NCBI GenBank assembly: GCA_963575745.1
Contig: CAUYUJ010019259.1
Coordinates: forward strand, 489,589-553,588
Origin: Prorocentrum cordatum
Lineage: Eukaryota; Sar; Dinophyceae; Prorocentrales; Prorocentraceae
DNA length: 64,000 nucleotides
Reading direction: 5' to 3'
In this document: positions 9,365 through 20,369 of the stretch, piece by piece
Layout of the letters: the number at the start of each line of letters is the position of its first letter
Numbering within the stretch: the first letter of the stretch is position 1
Notes under the pieces: generated by a model
Told to the model about the DNA's origin: nothing
Databases searched by the model: none
The model's input: only the letters and a program-made list of their open reading frames with translations
Made by a program: the position numbers and the translations under genes

Positions 9365-10494
9365 ATGGATGGATTGACCATGCCTGCGTCTGTGGACGCT
9401 TCTCTCGAGTGTTGGGCCGTGCGCAATCATCATGCGCTTCTGGGAGAGATTCTTGACATCATGCTTATCCGCCGCGCTATAGACAAACAAAGTTTGGTTC
9501 CTCTGGATGCCATTTGGATGAAAGATACCGTTCTCCAGATCCCAGATATCCACTTTGTCTTTCCCACGGATTCTGCGCGGAAGTCCTACGAGGCAAAGCC
9601 CGTTTTGACGAAGGGCGACATAGCATCCACCATGCAGCTCAATTACGAAATCACTGATCGTTGTTCTGTGAAAATGGCAGAGGCGATGCAGCACGCGACC
9701 AAGTACAATAGATCCCTCTGGGCATACATCTTTGCGCGTTGCTCCGGTCGCAAGTTCGTTGAGTGGGCCAGCAGATCTGGCCTGAAAGGGGCGACGGTGA
9801 GGGAGATTTTGGGGCGGGCTTGGGATGAATTGGATGATCCGGCAGATATGTTCTCTAGTAGATTTCAACCACAGTCCGTGTATCGTGAACTGATCAAACA
9901 GCAAACGAAACATGAGTTCTTGGACAGCCTCCCGGACCCAAAAAGTACAGCGTGGATTTGCTCCCGAGGCGCTTGAGGCTGAAGGGCGGACAGAATAAGT
10001 GGCGCAGTAAGAGAGCAGTGATGAAGGACATCAGGGGTCTCAAAGGGAACGGCCCGTTCCTCGCCGAGCATATGTGGCGCATTTACAACGGCTTCCAGAC
10101 CTCCAGCCTGCCGGACGATTCGTCTTACGCGGACACAGGGAGCGGCGCCCGGAGCTTCTTATTGGTTTGGGCTGATCTACCACAGAGGTTTGGCATCAAT
10201 GCAACTTCCCAGAGCGCGTGCGGCACTTTCAACAGGTATCTCCAGCGATTCATTGGGGAGCTCGAAGACATGCTGATTCGGCGCACCGCCAGGGCGCAGT
10301 CGGAGGAAGGGAGACACTGGTACACCGTCCTCCAGTCTGAGCTGTTGTCGGCCCCAGAGGCCGTCCAGTTCCTGTGCTGCGAGGGGATCAAGATCCTCCG
10401 CTTCTTGGTCACGCGAGACCCAAGGTACCTCAGGAGCAGCGCGGCCCCGCCGGACGACGTCGCCGAAAACGGGGCGAGCGAGCAGGAGGATTAG
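9365..10494 (+). CDS. Uncharacterised protein, ~376 residues, needs a -1 frame change
   Basis: The ATG at 9365 lies after an SL relic. The first frame runs to the stop at 9974-9976. The second is read continuously from the overlap to 10494. At 9937-9943 the bases C CCA AAA form an X XXY YYZ heptamer in the correct phase. A -1 slip there joins SLPDPK to KYSVDLLPRRLRLK and gives about 376 residues. A one-base homopolymer error in the run of five As at 9940-9944 would look the same. Visible features: a His/Leu-rich N-terminus, a central basic stretch (RLRLKGGQNKWRSKRAVMKD), and a conserved-looking FLLVWADLPQRFGI segment. No known domain is recognised. The gene sits between a GGA tract upstream and a TCC tract downstream. 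Confidence 0.65.
9937..9943 (+). promoter_or_regulatory. Candidate -1 ribosomal frameshift heptamer CCCAAAA
   Basis: The heptamer matches X XXY YYZ in the zero frame of the upstream ORF (codons GAC CCA AAA AGT), 31 nt before that frame's stop. The GC-rich sequence after it (about 9950-9975) could form structure but no clear pseudoknot was identified. An indel or sequencing error is an equally good explanation. Confidence 0.35.
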
Positions 10495-10514
10495 ACCGCG
10501 TGCAACTCCTGATT

Positions 10515-10812
10515 TTCCCTCTCTTCTCCTCCTCCTCCTCCACCTCCTCCTCCTGCTGCTCCTCCCCCTCTTCCTCCTCCTCCTGCTCCTCCTCCTCCTC
10601 CTCCTCCTCCTCCTCCTCCTGCTCCTCCTCCTCCCTCCTCCTACTGCTCCTCCTCCTCCTCCTCCCCTCCTCCTCCTCCTCCTCCTCCTCCTCCTCCTCC
10701 TCCTCCTCTCCTCCTCCTCCTCCTCCTCTTCCTCCTCCTCCTCTTGCTCCTCCTCCTCTTCCTCCTCCTACTGCTCCTCCTCCTCCTCCTCCTCCTCCTC
10801 CTCCTCCTTCTC
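10515..10812. repeat. TCC microsatellite (~300 bp)
   Basis: Nearly uninterrupted CCT/TCC with occasional CTG and TTC interruptions, starting 20 nt after the stop at 10494. It is the reverse-complement composition of the GGA tract at 8650-9005 on the other side of the gene. Confidence 0.92.
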
Positions 10813-11029
10813 ATCCGCGGGCCCAGGCTTCGCCGTGGGCGCGCGGCAGGAGGATTGGACCATGGCCCAAAGGGCACGTGGTGATGCACGGCCCTTTTGC
10901 TATTATCCTGCGCCGCCGGCTGGCCAGCGTGTCGGGCGGCTTGTACGCCACACCCTCGTGTCGCGCAGCGGCGCTGGCAGAAATCCTCTCGCAGGGATCG
11001 TCGTCGTCGGCCGCCGCCCGAGGGCGGCC

Positions 11030-11470
11030 CGAGCGGGCGCCAAGACGGCCCGAGCGGGCGCCAAGACGGCCCATGAGGCTCCCAAGACGGCGCCAAGAGG
11101 GCCCCAGGAAACCCAAACAGGAGCCCGAGAGGCCCAAAGAGGTCCCCAAGAGGCAGCAAAGAGGCCCCCAGAGGCCCCCAAGAGGCACCCGATAGGCGCA
11201 AAGTGGATTCCATGAGGCCCCAGAGAGGCCCCAAGAGGCACCCCAGAGGCTCCAAGAGGCCCCTCAGGGCCTTGAGGGGGCCAGGGCGCCCTGACCGGCA
11301 CCCTGGGCCCCCATGCGGTTGCGGCTCCGGCCGGATGTGTGACGGAATGGCGAGAGCAAGGTGCCGGTCAGGGCGCCTCTGGGCCCCTACGGGCCCGGAG
11401 GGGCTTCAGAGGGCCTCTCGGGGCCTCTTGGGGGTCTCTTGGGGCCTCTTTGGGTGCTCCTGGGGCTTCG
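11030..11470. repeat. Degenerate ~10-bp repeat, GAGGCCCCAA type
   Basis: Words such as GAGGCCCCAAGAGG, CCCAAGAGGC and CGCCAAGACGGCCC recur every 10-12 bases. From about 11390 they switch to the opposite strand (GGGGCCTCTTGGGGGTCTC). The same family fills the introns and spacers of the array after 32 kb. Confidence 0.85.
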
Positions 11471-11471
11471 C

Positions 11472-11491
11472 GACAACAACAGCAACATCGA

Positions 11492-11522
<31 letters not shown>

Positions 11523-11835
11523 GGCAACAACAACAGCGACACCAACAGCAGTAACAGCAACAGCAACAGCAACAACAACAGCAGCAGCAACAACAATAAC
11601 AACAGAACCGACGAAGACTTGAACAGCAGCAATAACGACAACAATAACAGAAACAACAACAACAACAACAACAACAACGATAACGACAACGACAACAACA
11701 ACAACGGCACCACCACCAACAACAACAACAACGATGCAAAAACAGAAACAACAGCAACAACACCAATAACAACGACGACATGAGCAACGAAAACAACAAT
11801 AACCAACAGCAACAACAACAATTGTAATAATAAAT
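11472..11835. repeat. AAC/CAG trinucleotide microsatellite
   Basis: Long run of CAA, AAC and CAG triplets with AAT and GAC interruptions. It ends 14 nt before the SL relic at 11849. The frames encode only Asn, Thr, Gln or Leu runs and are not genes. Confidence 0.92.
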
Positions 11836-11848
11836 AAGGAGCAGCCAG

Positions 11849-11869
11849 CCGTTGCGGTTTTGGCTCAAG
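11849..11869 (+). other. Spliced-leader relic upstream of the 11929 gene
   Basis: CCGTTGCGGTTTTGGCTCAAG matches the leader at 18 of 21 positions, with its 3' part TTTTGGCTCAAG intact. It lies 59 nt before the ATG at 11929, directly after the AAC microsatellite. Confidence 0.75.
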
Positions 11870-11928
11870 CGAGGCGCTTCAGTGCGAAAGTTCAGTGCGT
11901 AGCCCGTGCGCCGGGCAGCTTCTTGGCC

Positions 11929-14652
11929 ATGTCGGCCATGACGAGCGAGGCGGTGCAGGCGGCTCTGCAATCAGGGAGCACTCCTGGGACGAGGGAGCGC
12001 AACAAGGCAGAGGATGCCATCGTTGCCTGGCGCGATGAAGGCAAGGTCGAGGGCAACACCGAGGACCTCGCGCGCTTGTACTTGGCGCTGAAGCCTTTGG
12101 CGGCCGCGGAGAACAGGAAAGTCACCCCGAACATGATGAAGAGTTGGTACGGCGAGATCAAGAAGGAAGTGGCCGTGATGCGTTGGGTCTTCATTCAGAC
12201 CAAAGAGAAGCTTCCTGTCTTCCCGCCGAAGCTCGAGAAGGAGTGGCTGCTGCGGCCAGACGAGGTGGCGGATCTGCCCTCCCACTTCGACCCCGAGGAG
12301 GTGTGGATCATCGACGACGGGTGCCCGCGCCCAGCCTTGGGCGCAGGCGTCTTGCACGTGCAAGTGCGGGTGGTGAAGACGCAGAAGGCGCCCGCGAAAG
12401 GGTCGCCGGCGCCGGCGATCATGGGCGCCGTTTCGCCAGCGTCCGAGATGCCGGCTGCCATGGCGTCGGCTTCGTCGGCCCCAGCAGGCGCCCCCGGCGC
12501 GCCCCCCCCGGGAGCCGGACCCGCGGGCCAGCAGGCGCCGAAGCCCGCGGCGAGGCGGGTCCTTGAGAAGCGCGAGTCCTTGACGGATGAACAAGCCGCA
12601 GAGCAGCTCGCGCAGGGCATCGAAGAGGATTGCAAGAATCAGCGCGTCTCTTCGAAGAACAAGGACCTGACGAGCACCGTGGAGGTTCGTTTCCGCATGT
12701 GGCTGAGTCACTTGAAGACCCTCCGGGCCCGCGAGCAGGGCAAGACGGTGGAAGAGTTCGTGGAGTCCTTGGACCAGTACAACAAGGAATTCCCGTCCTT
12801 CGTGGTGAAGTGCTTGTTATTGACGGAGTGCTGGCCTCAGATAGAGCCCGTCGCTTCGCAGCTGAAAGACTTGGGCGCGGAGTTCCCGTCTTTGCTCCCT
12901 CGACTGGGCAAGGCCATCGTTGCGATGTGCGAGCAGGGCTACGACCTCAACTTGGCAACTTTTGAGATTGATGGCCTGGCGCTCTCACGGATGCCGACGC
13001 TAGTGCATTCCCCCTTCGTCGAGTCCTACACCGCCGCCAAGCAAGCCCACCGCGTGAAGATGCTGACGGACGAGAACTCTGGCATGACCCCCGCCGCCAA
13101 GAAAGACATGGTAGAGGAGGTGTTGGAGTTGTCAGCGTCTCTTCGGCCCGAGCACTTGCGACTTCTGAAGTTCGCCCAGACCTTCATGGCGCTGAATGGA
13201 AAGGCCTTGGGATTTTGGTTACTCGAAGAGACGGGCCGGTTCGACCTGCTCGGCGAATGGGATGCCGACAGCGAGTTCATGAAGGTGAAGCCGTTCGCAG
13301 ACGCCAAGAGCAAGTGGCGCGACGCGCCAGCCGGAGAGTTCATGTCTGCAGCCGACGTCATCATCAAACACGACCTGGTGGAGTCCGTGAAGTCCCCCGT
13401 TGCGAAGGCCGTCATCGTGGACCTCGTCTCCTTGCAGGCGGCGGAGAACTCGTGCTCGCCCGGGAGCGCGTGGGCCACGTTCGGTCGCAAGCTCTTCGAG
13501 GACGTCGCGGCGTCCCGCCTGGGCTTGAAGCGCCCCGGCGTGGAGCTGTCGACCGCTGCCGACATGCCGGAGGGTTTCCCCGAGTCCTGCCAGGCGGAGC
13601 TGCGCGACGTCATCCTCGGGTTGGCGAAGAAGGCCACCCCGGAGCTGCGCGACTACATCTTGGGCTTGGCGAAGAATGCGGCCGAGGCGCCCGCTCAGGT
13701 TGCCAAGGGGCCCGCTAAGGTCGGGGCTGGACAGAACCCTCAACAGTGACACGTCGATTGGTGAATTGTCCGTTTTCGGTTCTCGAGAGGGCGCCGTGGC
13801 CGTTATTTTCCAGGTTTGCGCCCTCCAGGTCTAGGCCTCAGGTCGTTTTCACTAAACCACGTTTTACTAAAGGGGGGTCTGTCCATCCCCGATAAGGCGG
13901 CCGAGGTCAAGAAGGAGCTCGCCGACGGCGCGACCGCCCTGGGCCAGCCGGGCCAGGCGGCTCAGGGGCCCGCTGAGGCGGGCGAGGTGACGACGGAGAC
14001 CGCTCCCGCAGAGCCGCAGGGCGCTCCGGAAGCCGCGTCTGAGGGCGACGGGAGTGCCGAGGTCGCCGAGGCCATGGCCCTCGCCGCCTACGAGAGCCAC
14101 AAGAAGCTCCCGCTAGGCACGGCGACGCTCGACCAGGTCGCAAGCTCGAGCGCCGGGGTCGCGACCGCCACGGGTCAGCCGGGCCAGGCGGCGACCGCGG
14201 CCGGTGGCTCTGACCTTGCGGCGACGCCTGACGCCGCGCCGCCGCCGCCGCAGGCGGCGGCGGCGGCAGCGGCGCAGCAGGCGACGGCACCCTTCAAGGC
14301 GGGCGATAAAGTCCGCACCATCGCCATCAAGGAAAAGGAGAAATGGAACGACCAGCAGGCTACGGCGCTCAGGATGGTCGGTTGGGAGGGCAAGAAGTAC
14401 TCGGTCATGATGGAGTCGGGGCCCCAGAAAGGAAAGAAGCGGGATTACGAGAGCAGGTTCCTGAAGCCGTGGGAGGCCTCGGCGGAGAAGACCCTGGTCG
14501 CGCCGGCGGGGCAGTCGCCGGCCCCCTCGCCGGCCGATGACGAGGCGGCCAGGGCAGCGAAGAAGCAGCGCTCGATGGAGCTCACGAGGCGCTTGTTCGG
14601 GAAGCTCCCGGAGGCGCGAGGGGCCGTCGGCTTCAGACTGCCGCGAGCTTGA
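11929..14652 (+). CDS. Uncharacterised protein, 848 residues if the 13720-13896 intron is spliced
   Basis: I chose the ATG at 11929, the first after the SL relic. Exon 1 (11929-13719, 597 codons) and exon 2 (13897-14652) join in frame with phase 0 when a 177-nt intron with AAG|GTCGGG donor and GATAAG|GCG acceptor is removed. Unspliced, translation would stop at 13747 inside the inserted element. The N-terminal half is helical and followed by a Pro/Ala linker (about residues 165-210). A tandem E/ELRDxILGLAK repeat lies near residues 558-590. Exon 2 is Ala/Pro/Gly-rich with QPGQAA repeats and a compact segment at residues 730-789 (FKAGDKVRTIAIKEKEKW to YESRFLKPW) that looks like a small beta-barrel (KOW/Tudor-like). 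No enzyme motif is recognised and function is unknown. Confidence 0.7.
13721..13892 (+). mobile_element. Introner-like TIR element forming an intron
   Basis: The 172-bp insert begins TCGGGGCTGGACAGA and ends TCTGTCCATCCCCGA, inverted repeats matching at 14 of 15 positions. It is bounded by a perfect 5-bp duplication TAAGG at 13716-13720 and 13893-13897. The donor GT is formed by the last G of the left TAAGG plus the first T of the element. The acceptor AG is inside the right TAAGG. Excision therefore restores one copy of the target, the expected mechanism for introners. A diverged copy is at 17130-17300. The interior, about 140 bp, has no open frame, so the element is non-autonomous. Confidence 0.85.
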
Positions 14653-15160
14653 CTTCCCACGCGTGCCGTCGCGATGGGGGGCGCTTCTCTTTTTCGTGGC
14701 GAGCCCGCGGACTCGCCTCGCTGCCGCCCAGGCCCAGCGCGCGCGATGCACTCGCGCGGTCTCTCTTGACGCGGGCCTCTCTGGCACAAAAAAACAGATT
14801 GGCCAGCCGGCCAATCCTTGCCCTTCCTCCCCCTCCCCCTCGCTCTCCCTCCCCCTGCCCCCCTCCTCCCCCTCGCCCTTCCTACGCAGGGGCCTCGCTT
14901 AACCACGGGGGGGCACAAGGGGCCTCCAAGAGCTCGGGGGGGCTTTGCGCAATTTAGGGAAGAGAAGCTGAGGAGAGCTTCGAGGAGCTCAGCGGACCTT
15001 AGCACGCCTAGGCGAGCCGAGCGGGGCTTAGCGGAGCGTAGCGTAGCGGAGCATAGATGAGCTTAGAGGAGCGTTGATGGGGCTTAGAGTAGCTTATTAT
15101 GGAGAGCCCAGAGGAGCTCTGGCAGAGCTTAGCGGAGCTTAGACTGGCTGGGGAAGACGC
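14653..15160. repeat. Pyrimidine tract and 10-bp GCTTAGCGGA repeats
   Basis: After the stop, 14815-14885 is a C/T-rich tract. From about 14945 to 15155, words like GCTTAGCGGAGC, GAGCTTAGAGGA and AGCGGAGCATAG recur with roughly 10-bp spacing. No gene is seen. Confidence 0.65.
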
Positions 15161-15189
15161 GGAGGAGGCGCCGTCGTCGCTGCTGTTGC

Positions 15190-15335
15190 GTCGGCGATGC
15201 CCGGCGATGGCCGGTAATGGCCGTCGATAGGGTTGTCGTTGTCGAGTCCGTGGTTCCATGGGATAACACTCAAGGAGGAGGAGGAGAAAGAGGAGGAGGA
15301 GGAGGAGGAGGATGGAGGGAGTGGAGGATGGAGGG
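15190..15335. repeat. GGCCGGTAATGG motif plus GGA microsatellite
   Basis: CCCGGCGATGGCCGGTAATG (15199-15218) is followed by a (GGA)n tract at about 15273-15330. This is the third occurrence of this pairing in the window. Confidence 0.75.
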
Positions 15336-15431
15336 GGGCGGGATTGGGCAAGCTCAGTCGGAAGGCGAATCACACCCTTTATGAAAACATACCCCATCCA
15401 GAGTAGGCAGGTAAACCCTCCTAGCCTTTCG

Positions 15432-15557
15432 TAGGGGAACGAAGATTGACATAGACATAAAACATTGGAGGACCGCGCGGATTTCTCGGATCGGCGCTGG
15501 ACCCCCCTGGCGCGCGGAGCGCCGAGTTTTTGCGTCTATGTTATTTTTCGTTCCCCT
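15432..15557. mobile_element. Small TIR element, GGGGAACGAA family
   Basis: The 126-bp segment begins TAGGGGAACGAA, with ACATAGAC a few bases further in, and ends GTCTATGTTATTTTTCGTTCCCCTA, so the termini are inverted. The interior contains GACCGCGCGGATTTCTCGG and ATCGGCGCTGG. The same terminal type and core occur in the element at 25210-25395. No coding capacity. Confidence 0.65.
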
Positions 15558-15760
15558 ATTTCGTGGCACGGAGGACGCGCTCACCAGTCTTGGATCCCAA
15601 GCGATGGACCTGGCTGGCGTCTCTCCGAGTGTACTTACGGGAGGCTCTCATGCCGTCTCACCGTTGGAGCGGCCCCAGCGCGGCGCCCAGACTCGGCTGA
15701 CATCGAACGGTCCGCTCTGCTGGGACGCCGCGATCGGTGAAGGTTGCACCATCTGTTGGT

Positions 15761-15945
15761 AGTCCCCAAACGTGGCGGTGAGTCGCGGGCGATTTGATGT
15801 CACCACCCGGTTTGGGGACTCATGTGGTTTTTGTTCGAGGGTGTCCCGAACGCTGGTGTGTTCAGGAATTACAGAGCCCAGCGGTGACCCCGTGTCCCAA
15901 AACCCGGCGGTGACTTTTTGGGGATGCCAGGTCACCGCCTGGTAT
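15761..15945. repeat. Two short foldback sequences sharing GGCGGTGA
   Basis: AGTCCCCAAACGTGGCGGTGA at 15761-15781 pairs with TCACCACCCGGTTTGGGGAC ending at 15820, with an 18-base loop. A second hairpin pairs CCGGCGGTGAC (about 15904) with GTCACCGCC (about 15931-15939). Confidence 0.65.
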
Positions 15946-16064
15946 CTCACGACCTGGTGTTGGGGGCTCCCAAATCTGCGCGGTTTCAGAAATAGCCAAC
16001 GCCGAAGTCGTCACGACACGAGCTCGCCGTTGAGTCTTTGCACAGTGTGTCGGTGGCAGTTCCC

Positions 16065-16347
16065 CCGACATGCAGCTTACTCAACAAGGGTCGCGGCGCT
16101 GCAGGTACTGAGCAGGGTTGCGGCCCGGGGCAACGAGGTTGCCGTCCACGCTGTCTGCAGCAGCCTCGACGACCAGGACGTGTTCGTGAGGCTCGAGGCA
16201 CTGGAGGTGCTGCCCAAGCTGGCGCGGAGCAGCGACGAGCGTGTGGCGGCCAAGGTGCGGCTCAAGCTGGCAGACAGGGACCGTCAGGTGCGCGACGCGG
16301 CGAAGGCTGCGCTGGGCTCCCTGGGCGGCCCAGACGCCGACGGGTAG
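16065..16347 (+). pseudogene. HEAT-repeat protein fragment (second copy)
   Basis: After a possible acceptor CCCCGACATGCAG the frame reads TRVAALQVLSRVAARGNEVA, then VCSSLDDQDVFVRLEALEVL, then VRLKLADRDRQVRDAAKAAL. These are three HEAT/PBS-type helical pairs with the D-x-D-x-x-V-R turn. The frame stops at 16345-16347, soon after the last helix, so this may be a terminal exon. The other such fragment, at 2941-3330, also follows CATGCAG. No upstream exon could be identified, so exon and pseudogene fragment remain equally possible. Confidence 0.5.
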
Positions 16348-16714
16348 CCTGCAGTTGAGGAGCCTGTCGGACGGCTGCCCAAGGCCAGGATCAGAAACTG
16401 CATATTCTGTCATTTTTAATACATGTTCCGCGTGCGGATCATGTATTGCAAATGCGGGGATGTAGTATTGGAAACAACGATGAGTTCATGCATACATGTA
16501 CTCATAAAGATCATGTATTAAACATCCTATATATTTAAATTTCCTATGTGTTAAAAACTGCCCTGTACACGAAGTTTTGCCAGGTTCGCTCGGATTTGCT
16601 GCATCGATGCTTGCCCCCCCTATTCCCCTGACGGCGCCCCCGTCGCCGGCCCTGGCGGCGCGTTCCTCGCGCCCGGGGAGCCGAGCCCAGAAATCCGCGC
16701 GGGCCCAGGGCTCG
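16348..16714. other. AT-richer spacer
   Basis: Mostly A/T-rich at 16390-16560 with repeated CATGTATT words, unlike the surrounding high-GC DNA. No gene, RNA or inverted repeat is recognised. Confidence 0.4.
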
Positions 16715-16925
16715 TTTCGATTCCTCCGATTCGATTCGACTCGATTTCAATGGATTCCGATCCCGATTCGAGTCGACATCGGATTCCGAGGCGTGATCCG
16801 ACTTCTCAATGGGAGGCCTAATGTCCTAGCCTTCTGATGTCTACCGATTCGAGTTTTGCCGACTCGGCTGCCGACCCCCGCCGATCCGATTCGTTTTGAT
16901 CACCGCTTCGACGTCTCGAGTCGAC
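16715..16925. repeat. Degenerate CCGATTCGA repeats
   Basis: Variants of TCCGATTCGA and GATTCGAGTCGAC recur throughout. Open frames that cross this and the following GC-rich DNA on both strands have no recognisable domain. Confidence 0.6.
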
Positions 16926-17129
16926 TCCGGGCTCTCCTGCGGCGGACCTCCGGAGGCGTGCATGCGTTCTCCCGCAGCGTGCCGAGCTTCTGCCCAGGGC
17001 GTCGGGCTCGCAGAGAGCCGCAGCTGCGGGCAGGGGCGGGCTCCGACCTGTGCGCGGCCGGCGCGCGGCGACGGCGTCGGCGGCGCGGCGGCTGGCGCGC
17101 CGTGGCCCGCCCGCCGCGAGCCGAGTTTG

Positions 17130-17300
17130 TCGGGGGTGGACAGACCTCCTACCCTGACACGTCGATTAAGGAATTGGCCGTTCTCGGTTCGCGAGAGGGC
17201 GTCGCGGCTGGCATTTTTGCGGGTCCAGGTCCGTCGGTTTCGGTCCCAGGCCGTTTTCGCTAAGGGGAGGTTTACTAAGGGGAGGTTTGTCCAGCGCCGA
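17130..17300 (+). mobile_element. Second copy of the introner-like TIR element
   Basis: Starts TCGGGGGTGGACAGA and ends TTTGTCCAGCGCCGA. Internally it shares GACACGTCGATT, GAATTG/GGCCGTT, GAGAGGGCG and ACTAAGGGGAGG with the element at 13721-13892. GAGTT flanks it on both sides (17123-17127 and 17299-17303), partly overlapping the ends. A GT (17129) and an AG (17301) occupy intron-compatible positions, but no gene is recognised around it. Confidence 0.75.
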
Positions 17301-18885
17301 GTTGGGCGTGGCGGAGGCTGCGGGGAAGTGCGGCGTCGAGCGGGCTCTCCGGGGAGCGGCGAGCCGGAGCGGAAGACGCAGCCCGGGAGCTGGAGCGAGT
17401 CGGGCAAGGAAGTCTGCCAGGTCGACGCAGCGCGCGGCTCGACGGTTTTGCCATGACCTTCGATCGCAGTGCATGGCCGCCAGATGAGTACAACGAGCAC
17501 AGGGCAGGCAGGCAGGATGGCGGCCTGCTCGCGCAGGGCTTGCAGTTGAGGGCGGCGCGCTCGAGGTGAGCTTCTCAGCTGCCTTTGGGAGACTGCTGAG
17601 TTGGAGCTCGGCGTCTGTGGTCTGCTGATATGACGAAGTCTCCTTTCGAGACTTGGCAATGCGTCATCGAAGGATTGGGCATCCATTAGCCAGCGGAGTT
17701 CCTGAAGAACGTGATTGAGCGCTGGATTGTTGCCATTCCAAAAGCACCCAGTGGCCACCAACGCAGAATCGCATGAGGGTAGCCATCATTGTTACTGGCT
17801 GCGAAATTGCACAGTGATCCTTACTGTGCAATTTGTGCTGTACCATTCGCATTTTCAGCCTGACTGAGCTGGGCTCGGGCATCAGCAGGGCGCCACTCCG
17901 CAGAGGCGGACGACGGCTGATTAATTCGAGGGCTCTGCTTGGAGCACGAGAAAAACTCCTTGCTGCCGCGTTGCGTGATATTTTGTGACTTGTTCCTGCG
18001 TGCGGCTGCAGGGTCGCCTGGCGGGGGCGGCGCCAGCGACGGGACGAAGGTTCCGAGGATTGGCCTCACAGGTTTCGATATTGGCTGGGGGGGCCAGAGA
18101 TTGGCGCGCGCTTGTGTTTTGCATGATCCGGAGATTGAGTCAGCGGTTCTTCATCATTCGCTGGCGATTCGGTCGGGGTTCCAAAGGAGGAAATGGGTTC
18201 TTGCAAAGGACCTGAAGGGTTCATGGGGAAGTGTTTGGGGAACTCATGCGGGTTCAGAGCAATTCTCAGATCAATGACCTTTCTCGCTGTTCCGTGGCGT
18301 CTAACCGCAGAGGGTCTTAATGATACCCCCCCCCCTAAGCTTTCGGCGGGGAATAGAAACTCGTCCCTCCTCCTCCTCCTTCCCCTCCCTCCTCCTTCCT
18401 TTCTCGGCGGTGGCGGTGGTGTGTCGGAAAGGAGGAGGAGGAGGCCGCCAAGTGTTGAGCGATGGGATTTGTGAGCCATTCTCATGATCTCTCATGCATC
18501 CGCCGACGAGAATAATTAATTTCCAACTGTTGCCGGGGTCCCAATCCGTCAATAAGCCGGCGGACAAATTATTCAATTTCTCATTATTGCCCAGGGGTTC
18601 ATCAAAGACCCTTTGGGGTCATCGTGTTTTCATTCTGAACCGGGACCACCTGGGCCACCTTCAGTGATAGGCCCGGCGCCGATCCAAGAATTTTCTTTCG
18701 AATATTTCTGTCCATGCTGCTTCTCTCGACCGAGCAGGAGGAGGAGGACAGCGCTTCCCCGACGGTTCCCGCCAGACCCCGAGGCCCTGCGGCGGAGCCA
18801 CTGCTCTGCAGGGGCCTCCGCGGGCCTCAGTCGGTCCTCGGGCGCGGCGTGGCTGTGCCGAGTCCTTTCGCACAAAGACACACAC
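17301..18885. other. Spacer without supported genes
   Basis: The left part is very GC-rich; around 17600-18300 composition is more balanced. Frames up to 306 codons exist on the minus strand (16841-17761), but they cross the introner and show no domain. A short TCC tract with a GGA counterpart lies at 18361-18445. Confidence 0.4.
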
Positions 18886-19045
18886 AAACACACGCACACA
18901 CGCACACACGCACACACGCACACACGCACACACGCACACACGCACACACGCACACACGCACACGCAAACGCACACACGCGCACACACGCGCACACACGCA
19001 CACGCACACGCACACGCACACGCACACGCACACGCACACACACAG
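18886..19045. repeat. ACAC/ACGC dinucleotide microsatellite
   Basis: CACACACG tetranucleotide-phased (CA)n with regular G substitutions, about 160 bp. The His/Thr and Cys/Val frames are not genes. Confidence 0.95.
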
Positions 19046-19194
19046 TCGTGGCAGTGCCCCCTCGGGGCCGTCTGGTCACGACAAGCGGACACTGGCTTCA
19101 AAAAGTGGCACCTCTGCGGCAGAATACACTCAGCAGCTCTGCACAGTCACGAGGGGGCTCACACGACAGGATGCTGCACGACGGGGGCCAGGGT

Positions 19195-19625
19195 TGAGGG
19201 ATAGAGACAAGGGATAAGACGTTACTTCGGGATACAAGGCTAAGGTCAACGATGTGTAGAAACTGGAGAAGGATAGGGATAGATATTGGGATAATGTATA
19301 CTGTATATACCCTTTGCACATATAGATATGTATAAAGCATCGCGGGTACTGGTATGAGGGTACAGGGATAGGGACTTCCGGAAACAGGGAACGGAATAGG
19401 GATTACGTTGAGGGATAGGGAGAAGGGGCAGATGGGGGTAAGGGGGCAACGCTGAGCCGCCGATCTCGGGGGGCTGGGCTCCGCTACCAGCCTCTAGAAC
19501 AGATGGCTGGAACGCCTACCGATGGGGGGGGGGTGCACGACAGGGGTCAACGATGGTGGGGAACGATGGGCCACCGATATCGGGGGCCCGCGATGGGGGG
19601 CAACGAGGGGGGTCAGATTTGAGGA
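19195..19625. repeat. GGGATA repeats followed by CGATGGGGGG repeats
   Basis: From 19195 to 19425 GGGATAGGGA-type hexamers recur irregularly. From 19518 to 19620 words like CGATGGGGGGCAACGA and CGATCTCGGGGG recur. Confidence 0.65.
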
Positions 19626-19735
19626 ACCGATCTCGAGGGCCCCTCCCTCACCAGGTGTTAGAAACAAACATAGAATCCTGAAGGACGATTGCATCGACAT
19701 TTGAGTTGGCGTTGGCCCTTCCCGGAAGTTGCTTC

Positions 19736-19792
19736 CGATGCATCGGCGATGTCGCCGATGCATCGCCGATGCATTGGCGATGCGGCGCGATC
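19736..19792. repeat. Palindromic GATGCATCGGCGATG cluster
   Basis: GATGCATCGGCGATGTCGCC, GATGCATCGCCGATGCATTG and GGCGATGCGGCGCG lie head to tail; TCGGCGATGTCGCCGA is itself palindromic and several hairpins are possible. Confidence 0.65.
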
Positions 19793-20369
19793 CTCCGACT
19801 CCACCTGCTCGGACCCCATCTGGGAGGCCTTTAGTCTTCGGGTGCAGTTCAGCACCTTGCCCAGGCATGCGATGGATGTCTTGTTCTTTGTCCATACGAT
19901 GCCCCCGGAAGTCCCGACCCATCCCCTGGGACCGGTCATCCCGGGTCGTATCGTGGACGGTCCCGAGGCCCGGCGAGGGCGGCGCGGGCGGGCGCGGCCC
20001 GCGAGGGGAGGGGGGTGGGGAGGCCGAGGGCCCAGACCACCTCGGGTGAGGACAAGAACCAGGACGGGATTTCTCGGCCTGTTTTCGGGTCCCCCGGGGC
20101 CCTTGCTGGGCCTCGGGAGCGTCAAACAGCGACCTGGGATGCAAAACGGGTCCAGGGGAACGGGTCGAGGCCTCTGAGGGTCGACGTTATGAACGAATCG
20201 TGGCGTCGGGGGGTTGGGGAGGAGGGGGAGCGGGAGGAGGGGGGATCAGAAGCGGAAAGTATACCCCTCACCTCGTCGCCAGGCTTGGTTTCGCTTTTGG
20301 GATTCTCATCAGGGCGCTCCCTCAGAGAGGTCTGGGGAATACCGGTATGGGTACAGTCTTGTCACCCCC

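Follow-up and report, generated by a model that had tools for sequence, protein, structure and literature searches.

A predicted intron coinciding with a 172-bp MITE insertion in a gene of Prorocentrum cordatum

The insertion and its host gene

The window analysed here, 64,000 nucleotides from Prorocentrum cordatum (probably a red-tide alga), has a GC content of 57-64% in its 4-kb blocks and contains, at 13716-13897, what is certainly a mobile element together with its target duplication. The element itself is 172 bp long (13721-13892, + strand) and is bounded on both sides by TAAGG, the left copy of this target site duplication lying at 13716-13720 and the right copy at 13893-13897, both on the + strand. 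Its left terminal inverted repeat (TIR), TCGGGGCTGGACAGA (13721-13735, + strand), is matched by the right one (13878-13892, - strand) at 14 of 15 positions when the first 15 bases are compared with the reverse complement of the last 15. The first-pass annotation had reported the size of the insert, the 14/15 inverted ends and the perfect TAAGG duplication, and we could confirm all of them base by base. The inverted repeat runs on imperfectly beyond the ends (29 of the first 40 positions match) and, as expected from this, the + strand folded as RNA is very stable (-78.6 kcal/mol, z -5.7 against 200 shuffles). Searching the window with the 15-mer end yielded 12 matches with up to three mismatches, where 3.4 were expected and the highest of 100 shuffles gave 8; with up to two mismatches there are four matches, corresponding to both ends of two elements. 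The second of these is an older copy of the same family, at 17130-17300 (+ strand), whose duplication (GTTTG/GTTGG, 4/5) does not contain AGG.

The insertion creates the signals of an intron. Indeed, as had been noted before, a GT arises at the junction of the left TAAGG with the element, formed by G13720 (the end of the duplication and the first base of the predicted intron) and T13721 (the first base of the element), and the AG of the acceptor (13895-13896) lies in the right TAAGG. Excision of the predicted phase-0 GT-AG intron (13720-13896, + strand, 177 nt) leaves one TAAGG, restoring the target, and joins ...CCCGCTAAG|GCGGCC... in one frame, again in agreement with that annotation; if the segment were retained, the frame would end at an in-frame TGA at 13747-13749. 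The joined frame, open from position 11803, ends with the stop at 14650-14652, and its first in-frame ATG is found at 11929. We take this ATG as the putative 5' end of the upstream coding part (11929-13719, + strand), in which GC by codon position is 0.63/0.45/0.84. The downstream coding part extends to the TGA stop (13897-14652, + strand) with values of 0.71/0.58/0.87, the codon bias being present on both sides of the insertion and in the same frame after excision.

Two alternatives bear on this prediction. A MITE (miniature inverted-repeat transposable element) might have landed within an older intron, in which case the intron would not be of its making; approximately 45% of the genome is intronic, as computed from published mean gene and CDS lengths (PMC10666404), and MITEs in introns are hence to be expected. 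Yet the predicted intron corresponds exactly to the element plus one duplication, with no remainder, and we regard an older intron as extremely improbable. It could also be that the long frames are not a gene, and that the MITE sits in non-coding DNA with the in-phase join being due to chance. In this GC-rich genome an open frame is often long; over random points in the retrieved flanks, the mean is 231 codons for the longest span free of stops on the strand of the element. Frame length was for this reason rejected as proof of coding capacity, and a coding score and Pfam were used instead. Pfam does not help the case for a gene, since the upstream coding part gave no family and the downstream frame just two sub-threshold matches. 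On the other hand, with 1.5 kb taken on either side, the stop-free span at the window insertion reaches 752 codons and is exceeded at no other insertion point except that of a duplicate of the window gene (756), and, within one frame, third-position GC is 0.84-0.87 for both coding parts. We consider a chance join in non-coding DNA very improbable.

Other features of the window surround the gene. A long CAA/CAG-type simple repeat (11470-11830) is located immediately upstream, and an open frame at 15763-16347 has weak similarity to HEAT repeats (Pfam E 0.001, below the cut-off) and is possibly the last exon of another gene. A tandem array occupies 32490-64000, with a unit of about 4.8-5.1 kb; for the greater part of their length its copies share about 91-98% identity. 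Ten open frames of the window, seven of them in or near this array, were searched with Pfam and none gave a match except the HEAT-like frame; Rfam gave no match within positions 10000-20000.

The duplicate of the window gene, L002 (G000:C15323:887663-890844), is 98% identical to it and carries the same insertion. The two genes are separated by 12 synonymous and 36 non-synonymous differences, that is, a dN/dS of 0.98 overall (0.76 for the upstream part and 1.45 for the downstream part). This value of about 1 led us to reject dN/dS as proof that the window gene is alive. L002 has a TGA 11 codons ahead of the normal stop and an insertion of 45 bp in frame; the two indels in the aligned coding parts, of 3 and 45 bp, both keep the frame. 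The 3' flank differs at 86 of 694 bases overall and would at first seem more diverged than the coding part, an artefact that we attribute to a low-complexity stretch (36 differences in 200 bases, blocks 14753-14952) and to a last, badly aligned block (39 in 94). In the clean blocks (14653-14752 and 14953-15252) only 11 of 400 bases differ, about the level of the coding part.

Such figures could reflect a MITE that hit a redundant, decaying gene copy and that is un- or poorly spliced, with the frame ending at 13749, gene and insertion having later been duplicated together; the restored frame would then merely show the gene as it was before the insertion. The dN/dS values, the premature TGA of L002 and the similar divergence of flank and coding part all point in this direction. 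Nevertheless, a divergence of about 2% is too little to tell relaxed from neutral evolution, both coding indels keep the frame, and the geometry of TAAGG permits splicing, the same geometry being found within a conserved DnaJ domain at another locus (L058, see below). The pair shows no sign of purifying selection, and at this divergence it does not show the death of the gene either. We therefore see decay of the host gene as unlikely, although clearly more plausible than the two alternatives above.

A high-copy family with 5-bp duplications

We searched a genome of 4,128,499,153 bases in 21,875 contigs with a pattern comprising both ends of the element. This yielded 5,152 copies in 4.13 Gb, and the reversed-pattern control yielded 0. 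Together with the 5-bp duplication, these counts bear out the earlier proposal that the insertion occurred by DNA transposition. The family has the ends TCGGGG...CCCCGA and a consensus of 172 bp; an autonomous partner would be a long element with TCGGGGSTGGACAGA ends and duplications of 5 bp. Median divergence from the consensus is 2.9% among 128 unique copies, AGG-chosen ones included, and the window element, at 4.1%, is a non-autonomous TIR element of this kind. One sense frame of the consensus is stop-free, so that an insertion in that phase could be read through as approximately 59 extra residues.

The 40 best matches to the window element are flanked by 5-bp duplications of many sequences, perfect in 34 of the 40. 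A set of 50 unique copies not picked for AGG was also examined. It combines 35 of the copies that best match the window element with the first 15 listed for the pattern, and L001 (the window gene), L002, L007, L008 and L024 were excluded from it as query-biased or duplicate. Allowing the element ends to shift by at most 3 bases, the duplication was perfect at 36 of these 50 copies and at least 4/5 at 43. With TIRs, a duplication of fixed length, and short elements in high copy number that lack a transposase gene, the family is a MITE family and behaves as a general MITE. We know of no superfamily that 5-bp duplications and TCGGGG ends would fit.

Target sequences and coding context

The duplications of 43 sampled copies are A/T-rich and C-poor, preceded by C in 18 cases and followed by G in 27. 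AGG is absent from 36 of them; it is present in any register in 7, and only 2 end in AGG. Read in the orientation of the element, the duplications are rich in purines (A71 G61 T56 C27 over the 43 copies), an asymmetry between strands that exists although the ends of the element are near-palindromic. CCT was found in none of the 43, against 7 with AGG, but other triplets are equally lopsided with respect to their complements (GGA 7:0, GAG 5:1, ATG 6:0).

Genome-wide counts were obtained from copies with exact 11-base ends in which the triplet ending the duplication is present on both sides. Duplications ending in AGG number 70 in sense and 23 in antisense, and those ending in GAG, the one scrambled control, number 153 and 78. 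AGG does not exceed GAG significantly in its sense bias (Fisher p 0.14). The GC skew of the flanks is weak and matches in direction (+0.027, standard error 0.011, n=54). The orientation bias is hence real, but the comparison of AGG with GAG does not support its being specific for splicing, and AGG enrichment was not accepted as evidence that splicing is selected for, GAG being commoner and similarly biased. AGG-ended sense duplications are rarer than GAG-ended ones, and it follows that splice sites do not appear to be a target of the family; as the orientation bias is also not significantly greater for AGG, no sign of selection favouring spliceable insertions is seen across the genome.

To assess coding context we sampled 135 loci, of which 7 were duplicates and were removed; the remaining 128 comprise 60 AGG-ended copies, 20 antisense ones and 48 others. 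The sample covers 64 of the 70 sense-AGG copies (L001, L008, L041 and L045 included) and 20 of the 23 antisense ones. A copy was called coding when at least 140 codons were open across the junction, with a score above -0.01 per codon and no residue reaching 20%. Among the 60 unique sense-AGG copies this rule was passed by two, L058 and L123; among the 20 antisense-AGG copies it was passed by none, on either strand; and among the 48 others it was passed by L034 (sense) and L051 (antisense, score -0.003). The window gene has the top coding score and fails the residue filter, being rich in alanine; this gene also served to train the score, which thus ranks the other copies but is circular for L001. 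Pfam gave no match for L065, nor for seven further coding-like segments, L123 among them.

Coding-like flanks are therefore few among the sampled copies. The first-pass annotation had looked to the family for copies that sit in genes with 5-bp duplications: the duplications are indeed there, as are coding insertions in L058 and L123, but such flanks are the exception. Published figures (85,849 genes and 2,798 bp, PMC10666404) put the coding share of the 4.15-Gb genome at 5.8%. About 3 of 60 AGG-ended copies look coding, a proportion close to this share although based on small numbers, so that the frequency with which AGG-ended insertions are kept in coding sequence may be roughly that expected by chance.

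The best evidence for the family acting as an intron in a conserved gene comes from the sequence of L058. Its duplication is CAAGG, its element is 6.4% diverged from the consensus, and the predicted intron measures 176 nt, which is not a multiple of 3, so that the exons lie in different DNA frames. After excision, the product matches Pfam DnaJ_C with an E of 2.7e-13 over residues 37-123, the junction being near residue 80, and its alignment with a PDB chain, 'DnaJ homolog subfamily A member 2' (E 3.7e-14), passes over the junction without a gap. At L123, with the duplication GCAGG and an element identical to the consensus, 166 codons are open across the junction after removal of 177 nt, and retention brings stops inside the element. 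In the window gene, L058 and L123, judging by sequence, the bounds of the element are those of the predicted intron and excision keeps the message, which places the spliceable geometry in three unrelated coding contexts among the 128 unique copies examined. A further candidate, a GA-AG intron at L034 (duplication GAGGA) in an acetyltransferase-like gene, was not retained as proof: the frame in question has no stop within the element, which can thus be read through, and the homology matches are weak (Pfam 20.1 against a cut-off of 20.7 bits; PDB E 0.014).

Possible origin of the introns and known systems

Our results suggest the following model. A high-copy MITE would jump into a protein-coding gene and duplicate 5 bp of target, TAAGG in the case of the window. 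With T as the first base of the element, a duplication would read ...AG|GT on the left and ...NNAG|G on the right whenever it ends in AGG. The pre-mRNA would then contain a complete GT...AG intron, the removal of which would restore the original message. More speculatively, the long imperfect hairpin could bring both splice sites together.

Both the anatomy of the insertion and the homology found at L058 support reading the window element as an introner, and we think it probable that the MITE insertion created the window intron. In this view the spliceosome would remove the segment, and the host gene would remain expressed and functional. To speak of direct evidence of intron gain, as the first annotation did, is too strong: splicing is deduced from sequence, dN/dS with L002 is about 1, and the family behaves as a general MITE whose sampled duplications mostly lack AGG.

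In this model introns would be a by-product of the few sense insertions that duplicate NNAGG in coding sequence. Taken to its full extent, this would mean an ordinary MITE with no splice-site preference and no specialised introner subfamily, its introns coming purely from chance NNAGG duplications, a reading for which we see roughly equal reasons for belief and doubt. It draws on the divergence of the intron-like copies, from none (L123 is identical to the consensus) to 6.4% (L058), and on the lack of enrichment of AGG over GAG. If it is true, MITE load would steadily yield new introns wherever AG|G repeats are acceptable to the spliceosome, and the rate of intron gain could be predicted from copy number and target composition. 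Should the family prove untargeted, a special introner would be unnecessary for intron gain, an active MITE and a permissive spliceosome being enough. The value of the locus is that transposon, duplication and predicted intron are legible in one sequence, against a background of thousands of copies that, by our sample, are mostly not introns. The family also provides its own internal control, as the same element occurs in splice-competent and splice-incompetent duplications and in both orientations.

The insertion of a mobile element that is cut out by splicing is a known route to new introns, and introners with TIRs and target site duplications were reportedly described by Huff et al. in 2016. 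The family in the window resembles MITEs at large in being short, present in high copy and TIR-bearing, with a duplication of fixed length and no room for a transposase gene. In the introners reported by Gozashti et al. 2022 (PMC9860276), one splice site or both come from the duplication or the adjoining exon. The TIR/TSD introners in that account are also short and non-autonomous, with TIRs, short duplications and splice sites recruited from the duplication or the neighbouring exon, and their excision usually leaves mRNA length unchanged. Unlike them, the window family has a 5-bp duplication, T...A ends, a GT composed of the G of the duplication and the T of the element, and an acceptor AG wholly within the duplication, and few of its sampled copies are coding-like.

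Other dinoflagellates contain many introner families (Roy et al. 2023, as cited in PMC11453091). Those introners and the ones of Amoebophrya (PMC7789003) share with the window family intron gain by insertion, inverted repeats that form hairpins and direct repeats at the boundaries; they belong to other species and are likened here by description, the Amoebophrya elements having been defined among non-canonical introns.

The closest comparison is with P. cordatum itself, whose published genome (strain CCMP1329, 4.15 Gb, 59.7% GC; Dougan et al. 2023, PMC10666404) is reported to contain introner elements in bulk. Its introns have the acceptor motif AGG in 79.7% of cases and GT donors in 24.7% (PMC10666404). 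These introners come from the same species and probably from the same genome as the window family. The passages of that account used here name no family, and the 172-bp family, its copy number and its apparent non-targeting of AGG do not appear in them; nor is the family named in the literature titles and abstract openings that we searched. Introners of such a type are thus already published, in P. cordatum in bulk. What looks new, with respect to these portions of the published accounts, is a family that is mostly an ordinary MITE, and whose introns are apparently a by-product of chance.
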